A stretch of 32,317 bases of DNA from a virus, in the IMG/VR virus record IMGVR_UViG_3300050132_000058, positions 1 through 32,317 of that record; one strand, written 5' to 3'. Below the pieces are notes generated by a model that saw only the letters and a program-made list of their open reading frames with translations, did no database searches and was not told the origin of the DNA. Shown here in pieces: positions 1 through 31,850 of this stretch; positions within the stretch are counted from its first letter, which is position 1, and every line of letters begins with the position of its first letter. The translations under genes were made by a program, and so were the position numbers.

Positions 1-1134
1 ATAGGTCAGTGTGACGCGATAGGCCGGAATGCCATTGTTGGCGTCATTGCTGCGCACACGGTCGATATCCTTGATGTTCGGAAAGTTAAAGCTTGCGACC
101 GGCGCACCGCTTGGAATGTCCAGCCTGGCCATGCGCAACATGCCGAGGCGATCAAAGCCGAAGTAGGCACCGGCGCTTGGCGCCACGGCATCCATGACGT
201 TTAGCCCGGTCGAATCGTCGCATACCCAGACGCCGCACTCCGCGCTGTTGAGCGCATCCAGGGCGGTAACGTCGGTCGCCGATATATCGGCGGCGGTCAG
301 GCCCATGTCGAGCGCGATCTGTTGCAGTATCTGCGCCGTCGTGCGATTGGCAACCGTGGCGCCTTGCGATGCGTCGCAAGTCACCTGTCCGGCAGGCGAC
401 CCACCGAGACGAAAATAGCCACCGGCCGGATAGACGCGGTACTGGCCGGCTGTTGGCGCCGTCGCCTCGACGTCGGCCGACGTGGTGTAATCCGCGCCCC
501 TGACGAGTGCCAGGCCGGAATCGTAGACGTTCGATACGGTGGCGATGGCGCCGTCGTGCACTTGGTAGATCAGCTTGCTGGTGTTGCACAGGACAGGCGC
601 GAAATTGAGGGCGGTACCATACAGCTTCGGAATGGCCGTGCCTGCAATGTCGGTGGTACCGTCTTTCCCTGCTGGCAAGACGTTGGTGCCACCGTAACGA
701 TGCTGGCACAGCAGCATGTCGAGTTCCAATTGCCGATCGCGCAGAATGATCGACAAGCTCTTGTAGGTCACTTCGGCCTGCTGCATGGTGAGGCGCTGCG
801 CCACCGTGAAGCTGCTGTATGGTTGTGTCGGATCGCCGACCAGCAGGCGCAGCTTGCGCTTGTCCAGGCTGTAAGCAAGCATGTAGTCCAGCGCGCCATC
901 GACGTTTTCCAGTTCGCAAGTGCCATAGGCAACCTGCGAGCGGCCGCCGGTAGTCGCGTCCTGGTACATCATGCGCGTCAGGTTGCCAGGCTGGGTCAAG
1001 CGCGGGACGTAATGGGTCGATGCCGGCGTTTCGCCGGGTTGCGTCACGTAATTGCCGGACGCAAAATACAGCGTTTTAACGGTTCCGATAGCATCCACCG
1101 CGCAGTCAATCTCCGCCAGATAAATCATGCTCAT
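1..1134 (-). CDS. Tail distal/baseplate-type protein, partial (C-terminus beyond window)
   Basis: The frame is open from an ATG at 1134 to the left edge with no stop, giving the first 378 residues of a longer protein that starts MSMIYLAEIDC. The ATG overlaps the tape-measure stop (ATGA), so it is the next gene of the tail operon. Genes directly after the tape measure in siphophages encode distal-tail, hub or tip proteins, and this one is inferred to be such a component. I see no catalytic motif: the visible part is a soluble, beta-rich-looking sequence with no membrane segment. The plus-strand frame that overlaps it looks like a shadow. Family membership is not certain; the position, coupling and long open frame are solid. 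Confidence 0.8.
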   Translation of the reverse strand, partial: MSMIYLAEIDCAVDAIGTVKTLYFASGNYVTQPGETPASTHYVPRLTQPGNLTRMMYQDATTGGRSQVAYGTCELENVDGALDYMLAYSLDKRKLRLLVGDPTQPYSSFTVAQRLTMQQAEVTYKSLSIILRDRQLELDMLLCQHRYGGTNVLPAGKDGTTDIAGTAIPKLYGTALNFAPVLCNTSKLIYQVHDGAIATVSNVYDSGLALVRGADYTTSADVEATAPTAGQYRVYPAGGYFRLGGSPAGQVTCDASQGATVANRTTAQILQQIALDMGLTAADISATDVTALDALNSAECGVWVCDDSTGLNVMDAVAPSAGAYFGFDRLGMLRMARLDIPSGAPVASFNFPNIKDIDRVRSNDANNGIPAYRVTLTY

Positions 1135-4100
1135 GGTTTAGCCGCCTCCCGCTTCGCCTTTTTCTGGATGTCGGTCAGCGCGACATTCGACTGGCTGAGT
1201 TTGTCCAGCAACGCTTGATTGGCCGCCGACTGCAGCGTTACCAGCGCACGCAATTGCCGGGTCTGCTCCTTCAGTTCGGCCATGGTTTCCTTGCTGTCGC
1301 CGCCGGATAGAAGCTGCTTGGTCTGCGCGGCGTTAAATATCCGCGATGCGCCGGTCATTTCGAGTTCCGGCCCATTTTCACCAACGATGCGCAAGCCTCC
1401 GGCGTGATCGCCGCCGGCAGCAAAGCCCGGTACGTTGGCAACGTAAGTTAAACCATTGTTGACGCTCAGCGGATGGTGTGCCATGTACGCCGCGCCGTTG
1501 TCAAGTTCGCTCCATACCTGACCACTTGCGGCAGCGGATAGCTGTTGCGCGGTATAGGAGCTGGTGCCCGCCGCTCCGCTCGCAAACACGCCGCTGGTCG
1601 CAGACGAACCGGACGATCCGGACGTAGCGGCGGTGTAAGCTGACATTGCCGCTGCTACCGAAAGAACACTGGCGTTGATCGTAATTAAGCTCGATACCTG
1701 CGCCTGCATGACGGTCAACTGCGTTTGCGCAATGCTCACCTGTTGATTCGCGGCAGCGGTCGAGTCGGTGATTCCTTTTTGAACGGCGGCGTAGTCGTCG
1801 GCGTATGCCTGCGTGCTGGCGTTGTATGCCTTCGAGTCAGTCAAGAATTGTTGCGCAACAGTTTGCAGGTTTCCAAGCGCGGTCGGATCGCCGGTTGCGG
1901 CGGCTGCGGACGTACTTTGAAACGTCGCCTTGTCCTGGTTGTACTGCGCTTCCGGCGACAAGGTGCTGAGTGCGCCAGTCGAGAGCGATAGACCGAACGC
2001 AGTCAACGAATCGACGAACGCCTGATATTTTGTAATGGTGGCCGTCAGCGCGGTATTTTGCGCGTTATAGGCGTTCGTCAGGTTGGTTGTGGCTGTCGCA
2101 ACGGCTGTTGCCTTCGCTGCCTGCGCGGTGGCTGCGTCCTGCGCGTCATAGATGGCCTGCTGCGTGGCGAGCAGGTTGCCGGTAAGGGTAGACAGCACAT
2201 CCGAGCGCGTTGCCGCCGTATACGCCGCTGTGTTGCCCTGGGCTTGCAATAGCTGTTCGTCAAGCGCGTGCTGCGCGGCCACGGTGCTTGCCGAGGTTGC
2301 CGTGGTCAGCGCGTTGGCATTGTCTACCGCAGTGGAGAACGCACCGGACAGAGCCATCAACTGGCCGTAAAGCTTCTGGCCGGCGTCGGTGCTGGTGTCA
2401 ATGCCGGAAATCATCGCGCGGAAGCCGTCTTTTGTGGTCGGCATGCTTTCATTGAGTACGGAAAACTGGGCCGACAGGTCTTTCAATTCCGATGCCGACT
2501 GTTCGGCCGGCGTAAAGTAGTCCTTCAGGAAGTCGGACAGCCCGGTGCTCAGCTGCGACGAACCGCCAGCCCCGTTAATCATGCTCTGGCTTAAATTCAT
2601 GCCGTTGCCTGCCGTGTCGTTCATCAACTGCCGCATGGCGAGTAGGCTTGAATAGAGTGACGCGAGATCGGATGCGGCGCCGGATGCCACGGAAATTATT
2701 TTCCCCACGCCGGTAAGCGCGCCATTGGTCGCCGTTTCGACGGCATCAATACTCTGGCGCACGATCTCTGCGCCCACATCGCCTTGCTTGTTGAGGATAC
2801 CGGTGTAATTAATTGCCGTTATGCCGAACGCTTGCAATGCAACCTGGGCTTGCTCGACGCCGGTCGCCACCCGAATGACCGTATCCGTGTAGGTTTCGCC
2901 CATTTGAGCAAACACCTCCATGCCAGGCAATACGGCAGAAGTTACTTTGTCCATTGCAGCGCCGATAACGGCGTTCAATGCGGCAATTTGCGCGGTCCCG
3001 CTCAATCCCTGCAGGGAAACCTGGCTCACCGAAATGGTCGTATTCTGGATTGCCGTGCCGACATCGGTGCTGCTTTTACCCAAGGCGGTTGCAGCCGTTT
3101 GCAAAGTGGTTTGCAGGTTTTGGAATATCAGGCCGAACTGTTGCGTTACCTGGTCGGACACTGCGCCCGTCACATTGTTGGTGGTATTGCTGCCGCCGCT
3201 GAACCAGCCGCCTTTGGTATCCACGTTCTCTGTCGCATACTGCTGTACGCCGTTACCTTTTTGCAGGGATGCAACGGAGCCGCCAAACTGCAAGCCCGCA
3301 TCGGAAATAGTTGTGGATGACGAACCGAAAATATCCCCCATCAAACCACTGGATGACTTGCCGACCTGTATCCCTAAATTCAATCCGCTTGCAATAGCGG
3401 AACTGTTCCCGGATATGAGCGTCGCAACGCCGGTGACGCCGTTTTCCATGTTCTTCAGCGAGTCCGCCATTTGTGCCGTCAACGGCAGCATGGCCGACGA
3501 ATTACTGGTCAGCAGCGTCATGCTGGCAACGATGGAATCGCTCTGCTTGGCGGCATCGCCTAGAACCGTGCCGGTGCCTTGCGTTTTTTGCATTTGGGCG
3601 GCGGCGCTTGGATCGGGTGCCGACGAGCCGCTGCCGCCTACGCCTGCAATAGCAAAGCCAAGTGCCGCCATTGTCGCAACCATCGCGCCCATGCGAATCC
3701 ATGCGGTGTAAGGGTCGCCTTGGGCTTGTATGGCAACGCCTGTAGCCGCCGCCGCCGTACCAACGGCGGCACTACTCGTTACCTGCGTAATTGCGCTAGT
3801 CGCCGAAGATAATGCGGTCTGCGCATATCCCCACACCTGCAATACGGTCGATTCGTTTGCCATCAACATTTCGGCAACGCGATAGATTTGCTGGACTTCT
3901 TGCAACGCCTTGTACCCGGTCGAGCCCTTAGTGAAAAACTGTTCGGCCGCACCAGCCATGTCCGCGTAGTTTTTCATCTGCGCGACGGATGAGTCCTTGT
4001 CAAATTTAGTCTGCGCCGCTTTAATCAGGTCATACTCTTTGTCGGCACCTTCGGCGGCGGCGACACCCTTTAGATATTGGAGTTGAATGTCGTTCTGTGT

Positions 4101-6341
4101 TTTTCCGTAGTCGGTGAACGCCACCGCCATTTTCCCGATGGCCGTGCCGATGTTGCCAAACGATGAAGTCAGATCGGCTTCCATCTGCTTGGCGGCGATG
4201 CCGGCATCCTTGAACTGTTGGGTAAGCAGCCTTTGCTGCTCGACGCCTGCATCAAGGGCGGCGCCTTGCGTCGACAACCCGATTAACTCTTTACGGTCCG
4301 CAATTTCCTGATTGATATAATTCAGGCGCGCCGTATAGATGGCAAGGGATTTGTCGTCCAGTGCAGTTTTTTTGATCACGTCTTGCAGATACTGCGCATC
4401 GCTCTCCGATTGCGCTAGCTTTCCCGCGTTGATGTCCCTCAAGACCAGTTCTTTTTGCGAAGCGTTCTTTCCGATCTCGTCATTGTGCTGGCGCTGCTTG
4501 GCGATGGCCGCGTCAAGCTGCTGTGTTTCGGCGACGCCGACAGCCTGCACGGATTTGATGATGGCGTCATAGTCGGTTTTTTCATCCACAAGCTGCTTGT
4601 TTATTCCAGCGGTTTCTGCGGCGTCAGACAGCGCCTGGTTATGTTTAATGTCCTCTTCGTATCCTTGGCGCTGCGCTGCGGTCAGGCCAGAGATTTGAAG
4701 CATTTTCTGATCGAACAATGTTTTTGACGAAATGGCATCCAGCGAATTATTCGTCAGCATCGCGTCCTGCTGCGACTTGGTGATGTTGCCAAGTGCGGCC
4801 TGCGTGTTGATGTCGTCGGCAGCGGACTTGATCTTGATTTGGTCCAGCGCTTCTTGCGCCGTGATCTGGCCTTGGGTCAATGCTCTCGCATCGGCACCGA
4901 CTGCGCGTTGAGCGTCTTGGATCGCTTTCGTGGTTTGGTCGATGGCACTGCGCTTTGCCGTCTCTTGCGCAACGAAGCCAGCGCCCGGTTCGGACTTGTG
5001 CTGCTCAATCAGCGTTAAACTATCCTTCAATTCTTGAATGTGATAAGACGACGCGCTGGCCTTGATCTTATCCCATGAATCGGCCTGCAATTTATTGGCG
5101 GCGGCAGCGGCTTGTTCGGCGGCTGTCACTTCTTTTTGCTTCGCAACCAAAGGCGCCAACGCATCAATTTGCGCTTGGATGGCGACGATTGATGGGTCTT
5201 TCGTACTTACGCCACTTGCTCTCATTATGGAAATTTGATCGCGCATTCCCTGCGCTTTCTGTGCGTCGCTTTGAATCTTCCCGATGTCCATAATGGCATG
5301 ACCCAAATCCGTCCATGCTTTAATCTCTGTATTTAGCCACTGCGTTACAGTTCCGATATTTTTAGCCTGCACCGGCATGTGATCTGTCACATCCTTCGCC
5401 AACGCCAACTGCGCACCCTGCACATCGCCCAATCGTTGCAGCGTCGCGATATGCTCAATGTCCGTGGTGGTGAGAAAGTGCATGGACCGATTGAGTTCGT
5501 TTGCGCCGGCCAATGGGTCTTCAAACAGCTTAATCATGGCCGGTGCAATGGTGGCAATGTCTTGCCCTGTCGATTTTGCATAGTCGCTGGTGAATTTGGT
5601 AATCTGCTGGATCGCAGCGCCCCCAATCTTTCCGGACGCCACCAGTGCAGTGACAATCGCAGTAGAGGTACCAATCGTTACCTCCTTCGATTGCGTCATG
5701 CTGTCGGCAAGCTGCATCATGTGATCGCTGCTCATTCCGGCGTAGTTGCTGGTGACGGCCAGCGCGGTATTCATCCCGTCCTGCTCTGATTTTCCCGCCG
5801 CAAACGCCGCGTATAGGCCGATGGCTGCAGCCGTCGCGGCCAAAACGCCAAGCGTCAATGGATTGAATAGCATCGCGGTCACACCAGTGGCGTTGCCGAG
5901 TACGAGCATTGAGCTACCCATGCGAGTGTAGCTGCCGATCATGGCGTCATGAATGACGCGCATCGACTCCATTTTTGCCATGTTGGACGACATGCTGGCC
6001 GTATGATTGCCGGTTGCAGCGGTCGCGGCAGCGATCTGCGCGATCATAGGCGCAGCCTCTTCGGTCAAGCCCAACTGTGCAGCTTTCATTTCAAGCAACG
6101 CGGTCTTGTTCATTCCAACGGCCGCAGCCTGATCGCGCAAGCTATCCATATAATGGAGTTGCCCTACCGTTAATTGCGCGGTTGAGTTGCCCAGTTCCTT
6201 CTGCGCGCCGGCCATCGTCTGGCCGACATTCTCGGCTTCGGCACCCATTCTGGTAGTGGCGGCGGTGACCTGATCGATGCCGTCGACCGCAACCTTGTTG
6301 CCGTCGATATTGATCTTGATGCCTAATTCCACCTGGGTCAT
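1131..6341 (-). CDS. Tail tape measure protein
   Basis: This is the longest gene of the window, 1736 residues. Tape-measure proteins set the length of long tails and are ejected with the DNA. At about 0.15 nm per residue the length would fit a tail near 260 nm. The sequence is typical: Ala/Gln/Thr/Ser-rich, long helical and coiled-coil stretches, a hydrophobic segment at about residues 160-183 and another at about 885-910, and a low-complexity C-terminal third. The start has a good ribosome site (GAGGAAA) 5 nt upstream. It follows the G/GT chaperone frames, which is the standard order (tube, G, GT, tape measure), and its stop overlaps the next start. It replaces the sheath-tube-tape order of Mu itself, so the tail is non-contractile. 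Confidence 0.93.
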   Translation of the reverse strand: MTQVELGIKINIDGNKVAVDGIDQVTAATTRMGAEAENVGQTMAGAQKELGNSTAQLTVGQLHYMDSLRDQAAAVGMNKTALLEMKAAQLGLTEEAAPMIAQIAAATAATGNHTASMSSNMAKMESMRVIHDAMIGSYTRMGSSMLVLGNATGVTAMLFNPLTLGVLAATAAAIGLYAAFAAGKSEQDGMNTALAVTSNYAGMSSDHMMQLADSMTQSKEVTIGTSTAIVTALVASGKIGGAAIQQITKFTSDYAKSTGQDIATIAPAMIKLFEDPLAGANELNRSMHFLTTTDIEHIATLQRLGDVQGAQLALAKDVTDHMPVQAKNIGTVTQWLNTEIKAWTDLGHAIMDIGKIQSDAQKAQGMRDQISIMRASGVSTKDPSIVAIQAQIDALAPLVAKQKEVTAAEQAAAAANKLQADSWDKIKASASSYHIQELKDSLTLIEQHKSEPGAGFVAQETAKRSAIDQTTKAIQDAQRAVGADARALTQGQITAQEALDQIKIKSAADDINTQAALGNITKSQQDAMLTNNSLDAISSKTLFDQKMLQISGLTAAQRQGYEEDIKHNQALSDAAETAGINKQLVDEKTDYDAIIKSVQAVGVAETQQLDAAIAKQRQHNDEIGKNASQKELVLRDINAGKLAQSESDAQYLQDVIKKTALDDKSLAIYTARLNYINQEIADRKELIGLSTQGAALDAGVEQQRLLTQQFKDAGIAAKQMEADLTSSFGNIGTAIGKMAVAFTDYGKTQNDIQLQYLKGVAAAEGADKEYDLIKAAQTKFDKDSSVAQMKNYADMAGAAEQFFTKGSTGYKALQEVQQIYRVAEMLMANESTVLQVWGYAQTALSSATSAITQVTSSAAVGTAAAATGVAIQAQGDPYTAWIRMGAMVATMAALGFAIAGVGGSGSSAPDPSAAAQMQKTQGTGTVLGDAAKQSDSIVASMTLLTSNSSAMLPLTAQMADSLKNMENGVTGVATLISGNSSAIASGLNLGIQVGKSSSGLMGDIFGSSSTTISDAGLQFGGSVASLQKGNGVQQYATENVDTKGGWFSGGSNTTNNVTGAVSDQVTQQFGLIFQNLQTTLQTAATALGKSSTDVGTAIQNTTISVSQVSLQGLSGTAQIAALNAVIGAAMDKVTSAVLPGMEVFAQMGETYTDTVIRVATGVEQAQVALQAFGITAINYTGILNKQGDVGAEIVRQSIDAVETATNGALTGVGKIISVASGAASDLASLYSSLLAMRQLMNDTAGNGMNLSQSMINGAGGSSQLSTGLSDFLKDYFTPAEQSASELKDLSAQFSVLNESMPTTKDGFRAMISGIDTSTDAGQKLYGQLMALSGAFSTAVDNANALTTATSASTVAAQHALDEQLLQAQGNTAAYTAATRSDVLSTLTGNLLATQQAIYDAQDAATAQAAKATAVATATTNLTNAYNAQNTALTATITKYQAFVDSLTAFGLSLSTGALSTLSPEAQYNQDKATFQSTSAAAATGDPTALGNLQTVAQQFLTDSKAYNASTQAYADDYAAVQKGITDSTAAANQQVSIAQTQLTVMQAQVSSLITINASVLSVAAAMSAYTAATSGSSGSSATSGVFASGAAGTSSYTAQQLSAAASGQVWSELDNGAAYMAHHPLSVNNGLTYVANVPGFAAGGDHAGGLRIVGENGPELEMTGASRIFNAAQTKQLLSGGDSKETMAELKEQTRQLRALVTLQSAANQALLDKLSQSNVALTDIQKKAKREAAKP

Positions 6342-6353
6342 GTCGCTTTCCTC

Positions 6354-6782
6354 TTATTGTGCTTGTATCTGTTGGCTCTGCTTTTCTTGAAAGCGCTCGC
6401 GTATCACTTTCAGGGCCGCCGCCTCCATGCTGCGTATCCCCTCAAATATGTCCGGCCATTCCTTGCCGGAAATTTTGCGCCTCATGCCACTGCGTACAAC
6501 CGGCAACGCTGTGTATTTGAGGTTGGTTCTCACCGCCTCCCCTTCAAACACCGCCAGATCCCATTGCGTGGCCATCGCCAGAAACATGCGCAGCGTCGTC
6601 AGGTTTTCCGGCCATATCTCGCAACATGCCGGCTCGACCTCTTCTTCAAGGGGGAGATCGGCAATCTCTTCTTCCAGGCCGAAAGCCAGCATGTCTTCGG
6701 CCAATTCGTCGCTTATGTGGGCCTTGCCGAAGCCATCGTTCTTGCCGCCGCCGCTCGCCCACCAAGCGGCGGCTTCCTCTAG
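6354..6782 (-). CDS. Tail assembly chaperone T-frame (DUF1799-like), expressed as -1 frameshift fusion GT
   Basis: This frame has no ATG near its beginning; the first usable start is a TTG at 6704, well inside the conserved-looking region. Open coding sequence extends upstream of it (LEEAAAWWASGGG...) across the stop of the preceding gene, back to an in-frame stop near 6822. The G frame ends in the heptamer A_AAA_AAC directly before its TAG. A -1 slip there continues with CTA GAG at 6782 and gives 142 further residues, for a fusion of about 256. Lambda-like and many other siphophages make G and GT this way, and the short GT coats the tape measure during assembly. The Trp/Cys/acidic-rich content and the position fit the DUF1799 family of tail proteins. 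Initiation at TTG 6704 instead is possible but less likely. Confidence 0.8.
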   Translation of the reverse strand, partial: LEEAAAWWASGGGKNDGFGKAHISDELAEDMLAFGLEEEIADLPLEEEVEPACCEIWPENLTTLRMFLAMATQWDLAVFEGEAVRTNLKYTALPVVRSGMRRKISGKEWPDIFEGIRSMEAAALKVIRERFQEKQSQQIQAQ

Positions 6783-6788
6783 TTTTTT
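6747..6788 (-). promoter_or_regulatory. -1 programmed ribosomal frameshift signal (slippery site + stem-loop)
   Basis: Read on the minus strand, the G-frame codons AAA AAC at the end of the gene are preceded by A, giving A_AAA_AAC (6788-6782), a canonical slippery heptamer. The stop TAG follows at once. An 8-nt spacer (6781-6774) leads to a perfect 9-bp stem, GCCGCCGCT (6773-6765) pairing with AGCGGCGGC (6755-6747), around a 9-nt loop. Spacing and stem strength match known -1 stimulators. The shifted frame is the next tail gene. Confidence 0.85.
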
Positions 6789-7123
6789 GTCTTGGCGCCC
6801 GCGATTGAGGCGAAAAAGGTTTTAACGAGGGTCGGCCGCACCGGGAACACGTCCAGCAAGGCGGCGAGGTTCTTATCGTTAAACTCCAGGACAGTGCCAT
6901 CCTCATCCTGCACATCGCTCCAGCCGACCATGACTTCGTCGATCAAGCCGCTATCGGTCAGCTCCTTTGCAGCCAGGCGATCGCTTACGCCATCCAGTTC
7001 GCTCTGCGACAGGCGCTTGAATACGGCACCAAACGCTTTCGGTACCGTCTTGCCGTTGTCGGACGGAATGTCAACTTTCACCTGGGCGGTGTATGTGGGA
7101 TTGGTTGCGATTTTGAATGCCAT
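6779..7123 (-). CDS. Tail assembly chaperone G
   Basis: A 114-residue acidic protein starting MAFKIATNPTY and ending GAKTKN. It sits between the tail tube gene and the tape measure, the invariant place of the lambda G-type chaperone, and carries the frameshift site at its 3' end. The beta-rich N-terminus, the stretch LSQSELDGVSDRLAAKE and the C-terminal hydrophobic helix LVKTFFASIAGA suit that family. It is preceded by AAAGGAAA about 8 nt before the ATG. The unshifted product should be far more abundant than the GT fusion. Assignment rests on position and architecture rather than on a recognised motif. Confidence 0.82.
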   Translation of the reverse strand: MAFKIATNPTYTAQVKVDIPSDNGKTVPKAFGAVFKRLSQSELDGVSDRLAAKELTDSGLIDEVMVGWSDVQDEDGTVLEFNDKNLAALLDVFPVRPTLVKTFFASIAGAKTKN

Positions 7124-7216: not shown

Positions 7217-8164
7217 TTAAATGTTAGTCAGGGCGATTTCGTCATTACCGGCCACCGGGATCGGCTGCAGCGTCAGCTTGTAGGCCAACATATCGTCAAC
7301 CTTATCGTAAGCGGCGTCGATCACCCGCACTTGCATGTCGGTTCTGACCTTCTTACCGGCGGCACTCCCATGGGTGTTCGTAAAGGCAACCACGGCGGCC
7401 GAGCTGGCCAACGCGAACGGATTGAAGGTGACGATGTCGGGCGCCAGCACCGTGAGCGTCGCTTGCGGCGCACGGTCGCTGATGACGATCTCGCGTTGCG
7501 GTCCTGGCAAATCCATCCGGGCAACCTTGTTGCCGAACGACCAGTCCAGCGCCGAGAACGGCAGCGGCACCCCATTGATGATCGCCGCCAGCGTGTTAGC
7601 GCTGTTGACGCCTTCTTCAATCGCCCATCCGGTGCGCGTCACGGCCGGCGCCGCACCGACAACCGGCGCCACATAGTTGAAATCAAACGTGAAGCTCAAG
7701 GTCGGCGTACCCTTGGCAGCGAACTTGCCCTTGACTTCGCCCCGGCCGCCGAGCAGCGCATGCTGCACGCCATCGATGTTGACGTAGGCGCACACACTGC
7801 CGAATGCCGAACTGATCAGATTGTAAGAGGCCGAGGTGGTGGCGACGATGGTTTCGGCGGTGCCGCATGCCAGAATCAGCGGTGCCCATTTAGGTGCCGT
7901 TCCTGCCACGCCCGACCCAGCCAGCGCCACGTCGAAGGTCAACTTAGCCCAGCTTGACACGATAATGTCGCCGCTGTTGCCCAGGTAAGGCAGGTCGATA
8001 TTGCGCGCCACCTTGTCGTTATCCATCGGCGTCAAGGTGACGTTGCGCGCTTCGATCCAGTTGGCGGCGCCGGTGGGTATCGCATCCACGCCATAAGTGG
8101 CCTCTGACTTGATCAGGATGGCTTTGTTTCTCCACCTACGTGGGCTGGCGATCAGATTAGACAT
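7217..8164 (-). CDS. Tail tube (major tail) protein
   Basis: 315 residues, beginning MSNLIASPRRWRNKAILIK. The N-terminal block (KSEATYGVDAIPTGAANWIE), followed by many short beta strands and Gly/Ala/Val-rich linkers, is typical of siphophage tail tube proteins that polymerise into stacked rings. A likely second Ig-like or tube repeat (EGVNSANTLAAIINGVPLPF onward) fills the C-terminal half. Its ATG overlaps the end of the small upstream gene, and the 93 nt downstream lead to the chaperone gene. No sheath gene precedes it, unlike phage Mu. Confidence 0.82.
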   Translation of the reverse strand: MSNLIASPRRWRNKAILIKSEATYGVDAIPTGAANWIEARNVTLTPMDNDKVARNIDLPYLGNSGDIIVSSWAKLTFDVALAGSGVAGTAPKWAPLILACGTAETIVATTSASYNLISSAFGSVCAYVNIDGVQHALLGGRGEVKGKFAAKGTPTLSFTFDFNYVAPVVGAAPAVTRTGWAIEEGVNSANTLAAIINGVPLPFSALDWSFGNKVARMDLPGPQREIVISDRAPQATLTVLAPDIVTFNPFALASSAAVVAFTNTHGSAAGKKVRTDMQVRVIDAAYDKVDDMLAYKLTLQPIPVAGNDEIALTNI

Positions 8165-12353: not shown

Positions 12354-12737
12354 ATGAAAAAAATAATGATCGCAGTCTTAGCCATCATTCTCGCCGGTTG
12401 CGCGAGTACTGGAAATGAGAAGCTTCGCACCGAGTCCGAAGGAACCATGTCTCAAAAAATAGTCGAAGGAAAAACCACTAAGTCAGAAATTAAGACAATG
12501 TTCGGCTCCCCCATCAAAACGAGCTTTACCGATGGCGGCTTGGAGATATGGAATTTTGAATTTAGCAACGTATCGGCTGATGCGATCAGCTACGTTCCAA
12601 TCGTCAACCTATTCGGCGGAAGCGCGAGCGGAAAGAAAAAGGAATTGGTCGTAATGTTCGATCAGGGCAGCATTGTGAAACGCTATTCAATGAGCGAGGC
12701 TGACGTTACGACTAAAACAGGTTTGTTCAATCGTTAG
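12354..12737 (+). CDS. BamE/SmpA-like outer-membrane lipoprotein (moron)
   Basis: 127 residues on the strand opposite to all late genes. It has a type II signal: positive N-terminus MKK, hydrophobic core and lipobox L-A-G-C with the lipidated Cys at residue 16, followed by Ala (outer-membrane sorting expected). The middle, IVEGKTTKSEIKTMFGSP...GGLEIWNFEF, follows the SmpA/OmlA/BamE pattern (G-T/K-x-E-V---FG-P, then W-Y/F). It has AAGGGAG 4 nt before the ATG and a strong terminator just after, so it is an independent transcription unit. Its base composition is visibly more A/T-rich than its neighbours. Position and features are those of a moron, a cargo gene likely expressed in the lysogen. 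A surface role such as blocking superinfection is an inference. Confidence 0.85.
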   Translation: MKKIMIAVLAIILAGCASTGNEKLRTESEGTMSQKIVEGKTTKSEIKTMFGSPIKTSFTDGGLEIWNFEFSNVSADAISYVPIVNLFGGSASGKKKELVVMFDQGSIVKRYSMSEADVTTKTGLFNR

Positions 12738-19275: not shown

Positions 19276-19508
19276 GCTTTATTCCTTCCGGTTGCGCGTT
19301 CCAACTCTTCCTGACAAACGACGCAGGTCTGTACGCCGGGAACCGCCTGGCGGCGAAATAGCGGAATTGGGTCGTCACAGACTGCGCATTCGGTTGCCGA
19401 GTCGGCCACGGTCATGCCTGCCAGTCCTGCACGGCGGGCCTGACTGTCCAGGGCGTTCTGACGCTGTTGCTCTTCGCACTCGGTGGCGCGGTCGAAAATA
19501 TCGGTCAA
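19272..19508 (-). CDS. TraR/DksA-type C4 zinc-finger protein
   Basis: 78 residues. It has the family layout: a helical N-terminus (MTDIFDRATECEEQQRQNAL) then a C4 zinc finger C-x2-C-x17-C-x2-C (CAVCDD ... CVVCQEELERA). TraR-like proteins are short versions of DksA that bind in the RNA polymerase secondary channel and mimic DksA plus ppGpp. Phages often carry one in the late lysis-to-packaging block, as here. The ATG overlaps the lipase stop. Confidence 0.9.
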   Translation of the reverse strand: MTDIFDRATECEEQQRQNALDSQARRAGLAGMTVADSATECAVCDDPIPLFRRQAVPGVQTCVVCQEELERATGRNKA

Positions 19509-20158
19509 CGCGCGCCCTCCGTTAAATCGCGGCGGGCGGCAAGGGCGGCCTGCGCCACGACATACAAACTGCTTGAATGGTCGCGTAGCGCTTCCAGGTC
19601 GGTCTGCGCGGGCGCGGCATCCACGGCGATCCAGGGTTCGGTATGGACGAAATCAAACGAGCCAACGGTCAGCGGTAGCGTCGGCACGATGTCATTGCGA
19701 TTGCGGTAACTTGTGTGGGCCATACCTGATTTGGCGATGATGCGCGCCACATTGGTAAACGCCGGCTTCGGCGAGCCGAACACGCAAAGCTGATCTACCG
19801 GGAGTTGGTTGTAAGCGAACATGGCGGCAAGGATGCGCGCCCGCGCGCCGCCCAGGCTATGCCCGCTAATCGCCTTCTTTGGTCCGACGACGGTACGCAC
19901 TTCGGCGAATACATCATCCATGCCGGCTAGAAATCCGGCATGGCAAAATCCTAGCTGGCGATGCCACTTCGGCACCGCCGATGCGTCGCGCACCCAGTCC
20001 TCGGTCGTTACCGATCCGCGCAGCACCAGCACGTCCGTGTCATCGACGCGCTTGAGACCGACCACTACATCGTCGGTTTCCCAATAGCGGTCGAATTCAT
20101 TCAGCGACGTGTAAATATTGTCGCTGAATTGGGCCAGAATTAACGGTGTGACGCTCAT
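19505..20158 (-). CDS. Class 3 (alpha/beta hydrolase) lipase in the lysis block
   Basis: 217 residues from ATG 20158, which overlaps the stop of the upstream membrane protein (ATGA); the upstream extension of the frame is a shadow of that gene. Class 3 lipase signatures are all present: LVLRGSVTTEDWVRD (oxyanion-side strand), the nucleophile elbow GHSLGGA with Ser101, Asp156 in RNRNDIVP, and His194 in LRDHSSSLY. There is no signal peptide, so it would reach lipids only through the holin, by lysis, or from inside. Lying with endolysin and holin, it most likely helps to break membrane or outer-membrane lipid at lysis. This is inferred from context, not shown. Confidence 0.88.
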   Translation of the reverse strand: MSVTPLILAQFSDNIYTSLNEFDRYWETDDVVVGLKRVDDTDVLVLRGSVTTEDWVRDASAVPKWHRQLGFCHAGFLAGMDDVFAEVRTVVGPKKAISGHSLGGARARILAAMFAYNQLPVDQLCVFGSPKPAFTNVARIIAKSGMAHTSYRNRNDIVPTLPLTVGSFDFVHTEPWIAVDAAPAQTDLEALRDHSSSLYVVAQAALAARRDLTEGAR

Positions 20159-20799
20159 TTCGGGACGCTTGCCGCTGGCGCCAACACGCCCGGCAGGCTG
20201 ATTCCCGCCGTTGGCACAGGTGTGGTTGTCGGCACCATTCTGGGTCCAGGCAGTTGGCTCAATAGATCGTTTGCGCTGGCGGTGGAAGCGGACAGGCAAA
20301 GCGACTTCAATCCGCCCGCGATTTCAGGATGACGAACGATGGTCGACAACGGCGTGCCGCAGGCGTTTTGCGTCCATATTTTGATATTAAGGTCTTCCGC
20401 TGCGCGGGCGGCGATCATGCCGCTGGTGTTGTACGCGGACGCTGCTTGCGTGACGCTCGCGCAACCCGAGAGGCAGAGCGCTCCGGCGATGCCAGCGGCG
20501 AGAGCCAACAACAGGAACGGATTTGCAAAACCTGTTTGCGAAGTGCTTGCTGCTTGCGAAGTGCTTGCTGCTTGCGATGCGACTGGCATCCGTCTAGCCG
20601 ACTGCGTGGACGGCCAGGTATTCAGTACCGTAATGATATGGCCGACGAGGATGCCTAACGACACATGGCAAAAGGAAATCAAGGTGTCGGCGCCGTTCAA
20701 CTTTTCTTTGTTGAAGACGATGGCGATCCACGTTCCAAACAATACCCCGCAGGCCACTGCGTAAAGCCCGACTGTGAGACAGACGATTTTTATATTCAT
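20155..20799 (-). CDS. Holin-like membrane protein fused to a lipoprotein-like domain
   Basis: 214 residues with three parts. Residues 4-29 and about 38-60 form two membrane segments, as in small holins. Residues 74-89 carry a repeat AAST-SQ coded by an 18-bp tandem repeat. Residues 94-113 form a third hydrophobic stretch ending in a lipobox-like LSGC (Cys113), followed by a soluble C-terminal domain. An in-frame ATG at residue 71 (20589) would make the C-terminal part a normal lipoprotein, although it lacks a clear ribosome site. The gene follows endolysin directly (4-nt overlap) and precedes lipase. A holin or pinholin role with an attached outer-membrane spanin-like lipoprotein is inferred. 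Confidence 0.75.
   Translation of the reverse strand: MNIKIVCLTVGLYAVACGVLFGTWIAIVFNKEKLNGADTLISFCHVSLGILVGHIITVLNTWPSTQSARRMPVASQAASTSQAASTSQTGFANPFLLLALAAGIAGALCLSGCASVTQAASAYNTSGMIAARAAEDLNIKIWTQNACGTPLSTIVRHPEIAGGLKSLCLSASTASANDLLSQLPGPRMVPTTTPVPTAGISLPGVLAPAASVPK
20536..20571 (-). repeat. 18-bp tandem repeat inside the membrane/lipoprotein gene
   Basis: TTGCGAAGTGCTTGCTGC occurs twice head to tail (20536-20553 and 20554-20571), with a partial third copy after it. It encodes the hexapeptide repeat in the linker between the membrane part and the lipoprotein-like part. Slippage here can change linker length in steps of six residues without breaking the frame. Confidence 0.9.
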
Positions 20800-21245
20800 G
20801 CTTGATCTCCCGTTAAAAATTCAGTTTTTTCAGCAACACGACGATGCAGCAATCCCGCCACCACCACCCCTTTACATTTCGCCCACGCCTCGAATTGATC
20901 GCCAGCGGCCGCGAAATTGCCGGCGTTCAGGTCGGTCAGCAGCGTGGAGTGCGCCAGGTGGCCGCGCCCGAGGTTGAAATCGAAGTCGACCAGCGCATCG
21001 AACTCGCCTTGGGTAAGCTGAACCGCCACCAGTTGATTGACATCGTTGACCGACGTTTGGATATTCGCGCGTAGGTCGGCAATCGCTTTTTCTGGCGTGA
21101 TGGCCGAACCAGGTACGACCCCGTGCGTGTTGCCGTAGCCGTTCGTCCAAATGCCGCCGACATCCTGATAGGCGGTAAGCCGGCAACCTTCGGCATTTTC
21201 GGTAAGCGCAAGGCCAGCGCCGGAATATTGCATCGGCGGCTTCAT
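20796..21245 (-). CDS. Endolysin, T4-type lysozyme (GH24)
   Basis: 149 residues. The catalytic triad of phage lysozymes is plain: E19 in ENAEGC, D28 in YQDVGG and T34 in IWTNGYGNT, giving E-x8-D-x5-T. The domain continues with LTQGEFDALVDFDFNLG and ends LLHRRVAEKTEFL, all usual GH24 blocks. There is no signal peptide or SAR segment, so release depends on a holin, plausibly the next gene. It cuts the glycan strands of peptidoglycan. The start overlaps the end of the upstream gene by 4 nt. Confidence 0.95.
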   Translation of the reverse strand: MKPPMQYSGAGLALTENAEGCRLTAYQDVGGIWTNGYGNTHGVVPGSAITPEKAIADLRANIQTSVNDVNQLVAVQLTQGEFDALVDFDFNLGRGHLAHSTLLTDLNAGNFAAAGDQFEAWAKCKGVVVAGLLHRRVAEKTEFLTGDQA

Positions 21246-27784: not shown

Positions 27785-27814
27785 GGCTGTCTGACGTTCC
27801 AGCGTCAGACAGCC
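27785..27814 (-). other. 12-bp perfect hairpin containing the transposase stop codon
   Basis: GGCTGTCTGACG and CGTCAGACAGCC pair over 12 bp with a 6-nt loop. The transposase stop TGA is inside the stem. There is no T tract downstream on the minus strand, so simple termination is unlikely; it may slow readthrough or protect the A message and so set the A-to-B ratio. Confidence 0.8.
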
Positions 27815-30216
27815 ACCTTAAAAATTTCCTCGCCAGATAGTTCAGCCTCTTCGGCCGCTCCCCAGGAGATATCGAGCAATTCAAAGCGATCTGCCAATTG
27901 GGCATAGTCTTGCGGATCGTCGATATAACCTCTTAGGAAGCGTTTATCGGCCTCGTTCCAGTTACCGCGCCGCTGCATCAGCCATTCGTAGTGCTCGCTG
28001 TCGACTGGGAAAAGCGGACGGGCCTCGCTCGCCTCATTCGGCTGCTCGTTGATCGGCGCGGCCAGCGTCAGCGCCTCAAACTCGCCGACCAGGTTCAACG
28101 TTGGGCTGGGAATGTTTTCCAGTGCGGCGGGTGCTTCGTAAATGTCCCGCTTCGGCGCACCTTGCAGTTCTTCCAGCACTTCCTCGCGTTTCACGTCTAG
28201 TCGGCTCAGACGGCCTTCGCTTCGCTTGCGCGCCGCTTGATCCAGGAACGTCTCAGGGAAGTAGTCGCGCTTGTTGGCCTCGAAGCCGGCGCTGCACACA
28301 AATCGGCCTTTCTCGTCGTACACCCACACGCTATCGGCGTTGTGGATGTCGTAGGCCACACGCACGATGTCGCCGTGGTATTCGGTCAGTTCGTTGGAGA
28401 AATACAGATTGTTAAACAAGCGCACTTCGCCGCGCAGCACTTTGACTTCCTTCATCGGGCGGAACAGCTCCAGCGATTGCTCCGGCGTGATGGTGACCAG
28501 TTGCGCGCCCGCTTCAACGCCCTCTATCCATGACTCGTTGGGTGTCATGTGCCGCTTCCTGCCCAGCTCGGCGTCGTAGATCATTTTCAGGCTACGATGC
28601 GGCCGGTTGTTGTATCGTTCGGCGTGGTCTTTAACGAACTCCAGAAACCGTTGCCACGGCATCAGGTATTTGCTGACGCCGCTGGTCTTGATGTCTTTGC
28701 GGGTAATCTTGAACACCTTGTTTTTTGCCTCTGCATCCATGTCCTTGCCCATGTAGGTCGGCAATTCCTTGGCGGCACGTACCCAGATATCCCTGTGGCC
28801 TTTTTCCACGATCCCGCGCGCCTGCGAGTTGTAAGCAATCGAGTGTGTCATCGTGAACCCGAGGCGACTTTCCATGCCGATGCCTGGTTGGCTCATCATT
28901 GCGTTCTTGTAGCCAGAACCGTTATCGACATAGAAAATGCTGCATATCCCGCCCGTTTCGCAGGCATGCCGAATCGCATCCAGCACCGCCAGTCCACTTT
29001 CGGCCAGATCGATGCTCCAGCCGACCACCTTGCGCGTGGCGGTGTCGCGCACAGTCGTAATTTCTGGCCGGAATGGCCTGCCGTGCGCCGGATGCGCCAC
29101 TTCGGCATCGAACGCGTGGCCATCGGCGGTATACACGTCGGCAGGCCACAGCATGCTGCTGTCGCGACGGACAAATGGCTTGACGTTCTTGATGTCGCGC
29201 GCACCCATGCGCCCGGCCATCGATTCGACGTTGCCCATTTTTTCGATGAAGCGGCGGGCCTGGTGATATAGACATTCTTCGTCAATGCCGTATCGCTGAT
29301 ATATCTGCTCTACCGCCCAGCGCAGGCTAGGCTTTTGCGGGCGCTGGAATTGCGCCAACAGGTCAGCCGCCCACACCGGAATTTTCGTGACGGCATGTTG
29401 ATCCTTGGGAGCCAGCGCATTGACTGCGCGAGTGCTACCGGCTTCGCTGTTCGCCTTGCAGATTGCGAACCAGTCGTACAGGGTGCGGCGGCTCAAGCTG
29501 CGCTTGCCGTCCCGACCTGATCGGGCGTTTGCTATCGGCACCAGTTGCGCAAGGTGTTCCGGCAAGGTGCCGTCCTGCGCCATGATGCTGACCTTTTGAA
29601 TCGCCTTTTCGCGCCCGACCACTTGGGCGACTCGGTCGACCTCGCGCAATATGGCCATGCGAGCTTCGGCGGTACGCTTCTGCCAGTCTTTTAACGCAGT
29701 GGCCTGTACCCGTAACGCACCTGACTCAGCCGGGACAAACTCAACGGTCCCGTGAATCCGTTTCTGCGATGTAAGCGCGATGCTGTGTTGTACAGGCTGT
29801 GTCGGTTGATGTGCGCCAGGTAAAAGGGCGAACTTCCCATAAATTCTCTGTTTATTTTCCGATCCTGCCAACCTGCTTTCGGAGTGCGAAATCTCCCTAC
29901 CGCTGTTCTCACCATGCATCCCTTTCGCACCAAGTGTGCGCGATCCTTGGCTATTCTTGCTTTCGATAGAAACGGCTTGATCATGTTTTTCTCCTGTCAG
30001 TAATTGTTGTACTAGGTGGCCCTTGATGGACTCCATAACGTCGGGTGGTGGCGCATACTCTCGGCGCGTGCCGCCGATCCCTTTGGTCCGAACATACGCC
30101 CAGCCCTCGCGCTCTGCCTTTGCTAACGCTTTTCCTTTGCTTGTCGGTATACCCGGCAATCGCATTACAGCAAGCTCTGCCGCGCTGTAGTGGGTCTTGA
30201 TGACAACCTGACTCAT
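27805..30216 (-). CDS. A: Transposase A (MuA-like DDE recombinase)
   Basis: 803 residues from ATG 30216, which overlaps the upstream stop as ATGA; the 93 codons further up in frame are a shadow. Mu A is 663. Residues 1-60 are a Mu-type DNA-binding winged helix (YSAAELAVMRLPGIPTSKGK, GIGGTRREY). A linker to about 170 is Ser/Lys/Gly-rich and unusually long. Further DNA-binding helices follow, and then the DDE core with D365 (YTADGH), D431 (YVDNGSGYK) and E471 (GIVEKGHRD); after it come a beta-barrel part and an acidic C-terminus for contact with B and ClpX. It performs donor cleavage and strand transfer at the phage ends. Confidence 0.96.
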   Translation of the reverse strand: MSQVVIKTHYSAAELAVMRLPGIPTSKGKALAKAEREGWAYVRTKGIGGTRREYAPPPDVMESIKGHLVQQLLTGEKHDQAVSIESKNSQGSRTLGAKGMHGENSGREISHSESRLAGSENKQRIYGKFALLPGAHQPTQPVQHSIALTSQKRIHGTVEFVPAESGALRVQATALKDWQKRTAEARMAILREVDRVAQVVGREKAIQKVSIMAQDGTLPEHLAQLVPIANARSGRDGKRSLSRRTLYDWFAICKANSEAGSTRAVNALAPKDQHAVTKIPVWAADLLAQFQRPQKPSLRWAVEQIYQRYGIDEECLYHQARRFIEKMGNVESMAGRMGARDIKNVKPFVRRDSSMLWPADVYTADGHAFDAEVAHPAHGRPFRPEITTVRDTATRKVVGWSIDLAESGLAVLDAIRHACETGGICSIFYVDNGSGYKNAMMSQPGIGMESRLGFTMTHSIAYNSQARGIVEKGHRDIWVRAAKELPTYMGKDMDAEAKNKVFKITRKDIKTSGVSKYLMPWQRFLEFVKDHAERYNNRPHRSLKMIYDAELGRKRHMTPNESWIEGVEAGAQLVTITPEQSLELFRPMKEVKVLRGEVRLFNNLYFSNELTEYHGDIVRVAYDIHNADSVWVYDEKGRFVCSAGFEANKRDYFPETFLDQAARKRSEGRLSRLDVKREEVLEELQGAPKRDIYEAPAALENIPSPTLNLVGEFEALTLAAPINEQPNEASEARPLFPVDSEHYEWLMQRRGNWNEADKRFLRGYIDDPQDYAQLADRFELLDISWGAAEEAELSGEEIFKVAV

Positions 30217-30698
30217 GCCGCCATCCCGAAAAGTTCCAGTTCCGGTTCCCCAGTCTTGATGACATTGCTGCGTTGGTAGGCGACCTGCGACAGCGTCTTG
30301 GTAAGCGCCGCGACCGTAGCATCGACCGCATCGCCGTTCTGATAAAAACGCGCCAGCAGGGCCATCGCCTCCGCAAAGCAGCACTGCACTTCCGCTAGTT
30401 CGGTCACATCGGCCTTCTTTCCTGCGGGAATTTCGATCACGACCTTGTTGCCATGCGCCAAACAAAGGTAATCGCTGACTAGCGAAATGCCGCAAAAAGT
30501 TTCAAATTGCCGGACGCGGTTTAACGGCATGGAGTTCTCGGACAACCACCGGTAAAGGGTCTTGATCTCGACGCCCATCAGGTCGGCCAGCACCTTGGTC
30601 GTGCGACGCTGTTCGGCGGCAAACTCGACGCACAAGTCCATCGCCTCGGACAAGCTGGTCGGGCGTACCGACTTCCATCGTCTTTTTCTTATTGTCAT
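30213..30698 (-). CDS. CII/Ner-neighbour DNA-binding early regulator
   Basis: 161 residues. GGAGACGAAAAA precedes the ATG. The N-terminal segment EFAAEQRRTTKVLADLMGVEIKTLYRWLSENSMPLNRVRQFE is a helix-turn-helix with the recognition helix IKTLYRWL. The C-terminal part (ALLARFYQNGDAVDATVAALTKTLSQVAYQRSN) is helical. It lies between the Ner-like gene and transposase A. Such proteins are found in B3-like early regions and are presumably regulators of early transcription; the name is not known to me. Confidence 0.82.
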   Translation of the reverse strand: MTIRKRRWKSVRPTSLSEAMDLCVEFAAEQRRTTKVLADLMGVEIKTLYRWLSENSMPLNRVRQFETFCGISLVSDYLCLAHGNKVVIEIPAGKKADVTELAEVQCCFAEAMALLARFYQNGDAVDATVAALTKTLSQVAYQRSNVIKTGEPELELFGMAA

Positions 30699-31271: not shown

Positions 31272-31850
31272 ATGAAAAAGCTCTATTCCGCGTCAGAGAT
31301 CGCTGCGATGCATTTGCCCGACCTTCCAGCCACGAAGGCAAGAGTTATTGATCGGGCGACCGGCGAAGGTTGGCCGTATGAGGAAAAAAAGGGACTTGGT
31401 GGCACGCGTCGCATGTATGAAATACCTACGCGATACCTGGCGGAGCGTGCCATGTTGAATGTCCGTCATGCGACAAACGCCGCGACTGAAGTCGCATTAC
31501 AGTACGGGCCACTCAGCAAAACCCTGCGTCTGGAGATGCAAGAGGTCGCATTTAACGAAAACCTCGACACTAATCAGCTGATGGAGCGTTTTAAGGATCG
31601 CCTGCCGCAGCCGGTGGTCGCTGAACCCGGTGTTGCGCCAGGGAAGGTAATTGCCACGATAGCGGCCGGTACGAAGGTCGACCCGGCCATTCTGGAGCGG
31701 ATCATTCGGATAATGGATGAAATAGTGGTAGAGCAGGGTCGTGAGTGGGTGCCTGAGCGCAAGGCTGCGTTCATTGCCGTGCTGTATGACTATCTTGCAA
31801 AAGGTGCGGACGAGAATGACGTTAAAACGCTGCTTAGGGCCATCCAATAA
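31272..31850 (+). CDS. c: Mu-type c repressor
   Basis: 192 residues, the first plus-strand phage gene, reading away from ner toward the phage left end as in Mu. Residues 4-60 (LYSASEIAAMHLPDLPATKA, GWPYEEKKGLGGTRRMYEIP) are a Mu DNA-binding winged helix clearly homologous to the start of transposase A (YSAAELAVMRLPGIPTSKGK, GWAYVRTKGIGGTRREYAPP), which explains how repressor and transposase can share operator DNA. The rest is a helical dimerisation and regulation part. The expected role is to hold the lysogen by binding the six operators at 31104-31270. Confidence 0.93.
   Translation: MKKLYSASEIAAMHLPDLPATKARVIDRATGEGWPYEEKKGLGGTRRMYEIPTRYLAERAMLNVRHATNAATEVALQYGPLSKTLRLEMQEVAFNENLDTNQLMERFKDRLPQPVVAEPGVAPGKVIATIAAGTKVDPAILERIIRIMDEIVVEQGREWVPERKAAFIAVLYDYLAKGADENDVKTLLRAIQ

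Follow-up and report, generated by a model that had tools for sequence, protein, structure and literature searches.

Comparative evidence for a predicted G/GT-type −1 frameshift joining Phage_TAC_4 and DUF1799 frames in a Mu-like siphophage sequence

The tail module of IMG/VR record IMGVR_UViG_3300050132_000058, analyzed over the whole 32,317-nt stretch (the window), contains two overlapping frames between a putative major tail gene and the tape measure gene, which raises the question of whether the second frame is a gene of its own or is entered by ribosomes that slip back near the end of the first. A sequence-only reading had proposed the latter, with the frames acting as the tail assembly chaperones G and GT, and we consider it highly probable that programmed −1 ribosomal frameshifting, as in the lambda G/GT pair, yields a G-GT fusion. 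This assignment is based on the exact anatomy of the site, the placement of both protein families ahead of the tape measure gene, the conservation of the heptamer and of the −1 frame, the stability of the hairpin, and the annotation of the related pair in Serratia phage Scapp. Taken together, the comparative data indicate that the frameshift is very well supported.

Anatomy of the predicted frameshift site

The elements of the site, all on the minus strand, and the flanking tail genes are as follows.

7217..8164, minus strand: putative tail tube or major tail protein, directly upstream of G (phrog_290 minor tail protein, E 2.8e-13; tail-module position)
6779..7123, minus strand: gene G, tail assembly chaperone, 0 frame, 114 aa, with a C-terminal AKTKN followed by TAG
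6782..6788, minus strand: slippery heptamer A_AAA_AAC in the phase of G (ACA-AAA-AAC)
6779..6781, minus strand: G stop codon TAG, adjoining the heptamer with 0 nt between; part of Leu CTA in the −1 frame
6781-6774, minus strand: spacer TAGAGGAA, 8 nt, from heptamer to hairpin
6747..6773, minus strand: likely stimulatory hairpin after the 8-nt spacer, from the predicted fold
6354..6782, minus strand: GT extension in the −1 frame, 142 aa after AAC (LEEAAAWW...QIQAQ), with stop TAA at 6356-6354
6354..7123, minus strand: predicted G-GT fusion, 256 aa, conceptual −1 translation
1131..6341, minus strand: tape measure protein, directly downstream of GT, 1736 aa (PF06791 TMP_2; phrog_24 tail length tape measure protein)

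The 3' end of G reads GCC-AAG-ACA-AAA-AAC-TAG, which places the heptamer in the G frame at the end of the gene, as the sequence-only reading had stated, with TAG directly after it; the chance of AAAAAAC at a given position is ~4.5e-5. The spacer of 8 nt and the stem of 9 bp were likewise found where they had been described, with GCCGCCGCT (6773-6765) pairing with AGCGGCGGC (6755-6747), and the predicted fold lengthens the stem to 11 bp (GCCGCCGCTTG/CGAGCGGCGGC) around a 5-nt loop. The free energy of this hairpin is −24.8 kcal/mol (z −4.17 relative to dinucleotide shuffles). The −1 frame continues for exactly 142 residues after AAC, to 6354, in agreement with the earlier description, and its supposed lack of a usable ATG is borne out: the earliest candidate start of any kind is a TTG at 6704, 26 codons past the slip, the earliest ATG lies at 6692, 30 codons past it, and neither is preceded by a Shine-Dalgarno-like sequence.

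On these features, ribosomes would mostly translate G and halt at TAG, while a minority would pause at the downstream hairpin with two tRNAs on AAA-AAC; the paused tRNAs would slip back by one base to AAA-AAA, and the −1 frame would then be read to give G-GT. By analogy with lambda, G, including the G part of GT, would coat the tape measure protein, the GT extension would recruit tail tube subunits, and tail assembly would be governed by a low GT:G ratio. The description of the site as strong was an overstatement, since A_AAA_AAC works with low efficiency in E. coli (PMC4066793, PMC5009743), which may not be the host of this phage. A low-efficiency heptamer would fit a low GT:G ratio such as that of lambda, in which G to GT is 30:1 (PMC5009743).

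Conservation among homologues and the origin of the second frame

To follow the site beyond the window, homologues were gathered in two ways, by G alone and by GT alone, and near-duplicates were removed, leaving 78 heptamer-bearing sites that fall into 66 clusters at 60% and 43 clusters at 40% protein identity and are not phylogenetically independent. One locus (L022) was left out as not a real homologue, another (L015) ends before the site, and a third (L019) was set apart, as GGGAAAG there lies 27 nt ahead of the stop codon and the GT frame has no Pfam match. A family search of genomes with PF08748 returned no match even where the gene is present and is thus insensitive. The bacterial genome collection returned a single relative, a Herbaspirillum prophage whose G is 65% identical. 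In the prophage of Herbaspirillum sp. ST 5-3 (L010), the predicted fusion would read KRKN-LTDAAVWW across the junction.

The in-phase heptamer is AAAAAAC in 64 of the 78 non-redundant homologues and GGGAAAC in the other 14; by cluster at 40% protein identity, the counts are 32 and 11 of 43. The codon before the AAA of the heptamer varies (ACA, CGA, AGA, GCA, GTA, GAA, CAA, CTA), and A occupies the third position of that codon at all 56 A-type sites among the first 64 loci, where codon use predicts 10.5; at GGGAAAC sites this base is G. The change from AAA-AAC to GGA-AAC likewise swaps the encoded residue and keeps slipperiness. Because the residue varies while the third base stays A, or G with GGGAAAC, selection acts on the nucleotides of the slippery site. 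The −1 frame is also retained from its first residue, with L1, A4, A5, W8, and A9 conserved upstream of any start codon.

These patterns bear directly on the possibility that GT is a separate gene, in which termination-reinitiation or coupling leads to translation from a weak start (TTG 6704 or ATG 6692), with the heptamer incidental. Gene callers do pick such starts in most annotated relatives, and the first candidate is only 26 codons past the slip; however, conservation ahead of every start codon would not be explained by a separately initiated gene, the annotated start differs widely in type and position among relatives, the candidates lack a Shine-Dalgarno-like sequence, and the heptamer is kept through synonymous sites. 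We regard separate initiation as very improbable. The case named beforehand as decisive against the frameshift, a homologue with a good GT start codon and no slippery site, was not found among the homologues, and Scapp, which stands alone as a true pair lacking the heptamer, has an A_AAG tetramer and carries a frameshift annotation.

Slippage could instead occur during transcription, so that a fusion mRNA arises on the run of six consecutive A residues at the site. Six A residues are short for slippage by bacterial RNA polymerase, many homologues carry GGGAAAC, a site free of long homopolymers, and a hairpin at ribosomal spacing is retained, all of which leave this route scarcely credible. Two adjacent, overlapping frames might also reflect one gene split by a neutral frameshift or a sequencing error, an explanation that we give practically no weight and that is refuted by the recurrence of the arrangement in 78 non-redundant sequences, among them isolate phage genomes and prophages. 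The programmed ribosomal frameshift is thus the reading that we carry forward.

To examine the hairpin, we compared the 47 nt after the heptamer with 300 synonymous shuffles drawn from local codon use, and the sequence in the window folds more stably than the shuffles (p 0.003). The same 47-nt test over 64 loci gave a mean z of −1.5, while six control segments in the same genes gave mean z values of −0.2 to −0.6, and every one of these segments differs from the site (Wilcoxon p ≤2e-5). RNAalifold analysis of 25 sequences revealed compensatory pairs at 0 of 6 consensus pairs. The stem register moves between relatives, with GCCGCC/GGCGGC extended inwards in the window and outwards, as GAC/GTC, in another group; consequently, covariation speaks neither for nor against the hairpin. 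The alignment of homologues that had been suggested as a check therefore upholds the heptamer, across 78 homologues, and the stem by its stability but not by covariation, and the data point to the hairpin as a stable element rather than a covarying one.

The position of the G stop codon shows a further regularity. The stop directly follows the heptamer in 68 of 78 loci, compared with 38.9 expected from the use of synonymous codons in the −1 frame (z 8.4, a value inflated by the relatedness of the sequences), and in the same 78 loci the Leu codon CTA is used 31 times compared with an expected 7.8. This excess of immediate stops suggests that the stop position is kept. It is conceivable, though we think it unlikely, that a stop after a low-efficiency heptamer is itself selected, and that competition between release factor and slippage of the E/P-site tRNAs sets the G:GT ratio; if so, the stoichiometry of the tail chaperones would be coupled to termination. 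A literature search turned up no paper on a stop codon that immediately follows a slippery site.

Protein families and the tail module

To assign the two frames, we compared them with Pfam, where matches were judged by the gathering cut-off, and with PHROGs. G matches PF08748 Phage_TAC_4 over the whole protein (28.7 bits; cut-off 21.1) as well as phrog_313 (Tail assembly chaperone), and the −1 frame of GT matches PF08809 DUF1799 (45.5 bits; cut-off 26). The AlphaFold model of G (pLDDT 85.6) was compared with the solved tail assembly chaperone fold, represented by HK97 gp13, YqbN, and RBSTP2171. VIA-align places it nearest, though weakly, to 3fgx, 3klu, and 5ir0, with HK97 gp13 (2ob9) fifth; the ranks are high but the scores are low (Z 5.2 for 3fgx, 4.4 for 3klu, and 3.0 for 2ob9). 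PMC9603447 describes 3fgx, 3klu, and 2ob9 as tail assembly chaperones. Foldseek searches of the PDB returned no significant match for the G model and no meaningful match for the GT model, sequence searches of solved structures with G and GT gave chance matches only, and matches in BFVD include annotated tape measure chaperones. The proposal of a G/GT tail-chaperone frameshift is in this way strengthened by the family matches and the weak likeness of the G model to solved tail chaperones, alongside the conservation of the heptamer and −1 frame and the synonymous-shuffle test of the hairpin.

The overlapping frames sit between the tape measure gene and the putative major tail gene, which was assigned to the tail tube from its PHROG match and its position. 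Elsewhere, the window encodes transposition and head families of the Mu type (Mu-transpos_C, Portal_Mu, Phage_Mu_F, Mu-like_Pro, Mu-like_gpT, Gp36), and a search between the head and tape measure genes found no gene of sheath size. Based on the Mu-like head and transposition genes and the lack of a sheath-size gene, the source is, on its gene content, a Mu-like transposable phage that has a siphophage tail, in line with the earlier supposition; the transposase is of the MuA type.

Other genes in the window merit separate mention. A plus-strand ORF at 12354-12737 lies inside the minus-strand structural operon, encodes a small lipoprotein-like product (MKKIMIAVLAIILAGCAS...) with a sub-threshold BamE match, and looks like a moron gene. 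A class 3 lipase (19505-20299, minus strand; PF01764, E 1.5e-12) is located near a lysis gene (lysozyme, 20796-21245). The MuA-type transposase (27805-30495, minus strand) and a divergent regulator-like gene (31272-31850, plus strand) both have weak PF02316 matches; a common Mu DNA-binding N-terminal domain would be as expected of a repressor and a transposase that bind the same operators.

Known frameshift systems and the annotation of relatives

The finding is not new in kind, as G/GT frameshifting occurs generally across long-tailed phages according to Xu, Hendrix, and Duda (2004), as that work is cited in PMC5009743, PMC3483164, and PMC5313236. As predicted for the present locus, ribosomes in phage lambda slip by −1 close to the end of the first member of a gene pair that precedes the tape measure gene, with G abundant and G-T rare, but the lambda proteins belong to other families, and the heptamer A_AAA_AAC with its immediate stop is a feature of the locus described here. 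The slippery site of lambda is G_GGA_AAG. In the gp12/gp13 pair of Acinetobacter phage Loki, annotated as a two-segment join, AAAAAAC likewise lies directly before the G stop (PMC5313236); the −1 half is PF23812 Phage_TAC_18, however, rather than DUF1799, and Loki is lytic and not Mu-like.

Serratia phage Scapp (MH553517) has the same order of families, PF08748 then PF08809 before the tape measure gene, and its record annotates a tape measure chaperone together with a joined "Tape Measure Chaperone Frameshift Product." Unlike the present site, that of Scapp lacks an X_XXY_YYZ heptamer and reads GAA-AAG-TAT-TAA, with an A_AAG tetramer. No transposase is among the genes in the 40 kb of the Scapp annotation covered here. 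With its apparent A_AAG tetramer, the Scapp pair (L111:16156-16865) is a natural test case for the evolution of the site. PaMx73, a Mu-like Pseudomonas siphophage of the D3112 group, resembles the present phage in being transposable, with a siphophage tail and a −1 frameshift predicted for its tail assembly pair; the site proposed for its core ORFs 35/36 is T_TTT_TTC, 43 codons before the stop (PMC4378225), and thus differs in heptamer and geometry.

The claim that G/GT pairs of transposable siphophages are rarely annotated as such holds for 22 annotated relatives, but a frameshift had already been proposed for PaMx73/D3112-like phages (PMC4378225). A joined G/GT feature is present in 0 of these 22 records carrying the pair, and the expectation of a wrong GT start was also correct: the gene begins mostly 7 to 66 codons late in the 13 records with starts measured, or is omitted. 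In Rhodobacter phage RC1, GT begins with CTG at the junction, and the public records of ESCO41, Pandora71, and HK639 (L007, L101, and L104) have no gene over the DUF1799 frame. tblastn searches with the GT extensions of two relatives matched 808 and 1,049 phage records.

This locus leaves the general picture of frameshifting in phages as it was. It provides a clean comparative case in which Phage_TAC_4 and DUF1799 would together form a single frameshifted G/GT cassette; the gene tables inspected mostly give the second half as a separate protein with a late start, or omit it. This mis-annotation touches genome annotation as well as work on the stoichiometry of tail assembly.
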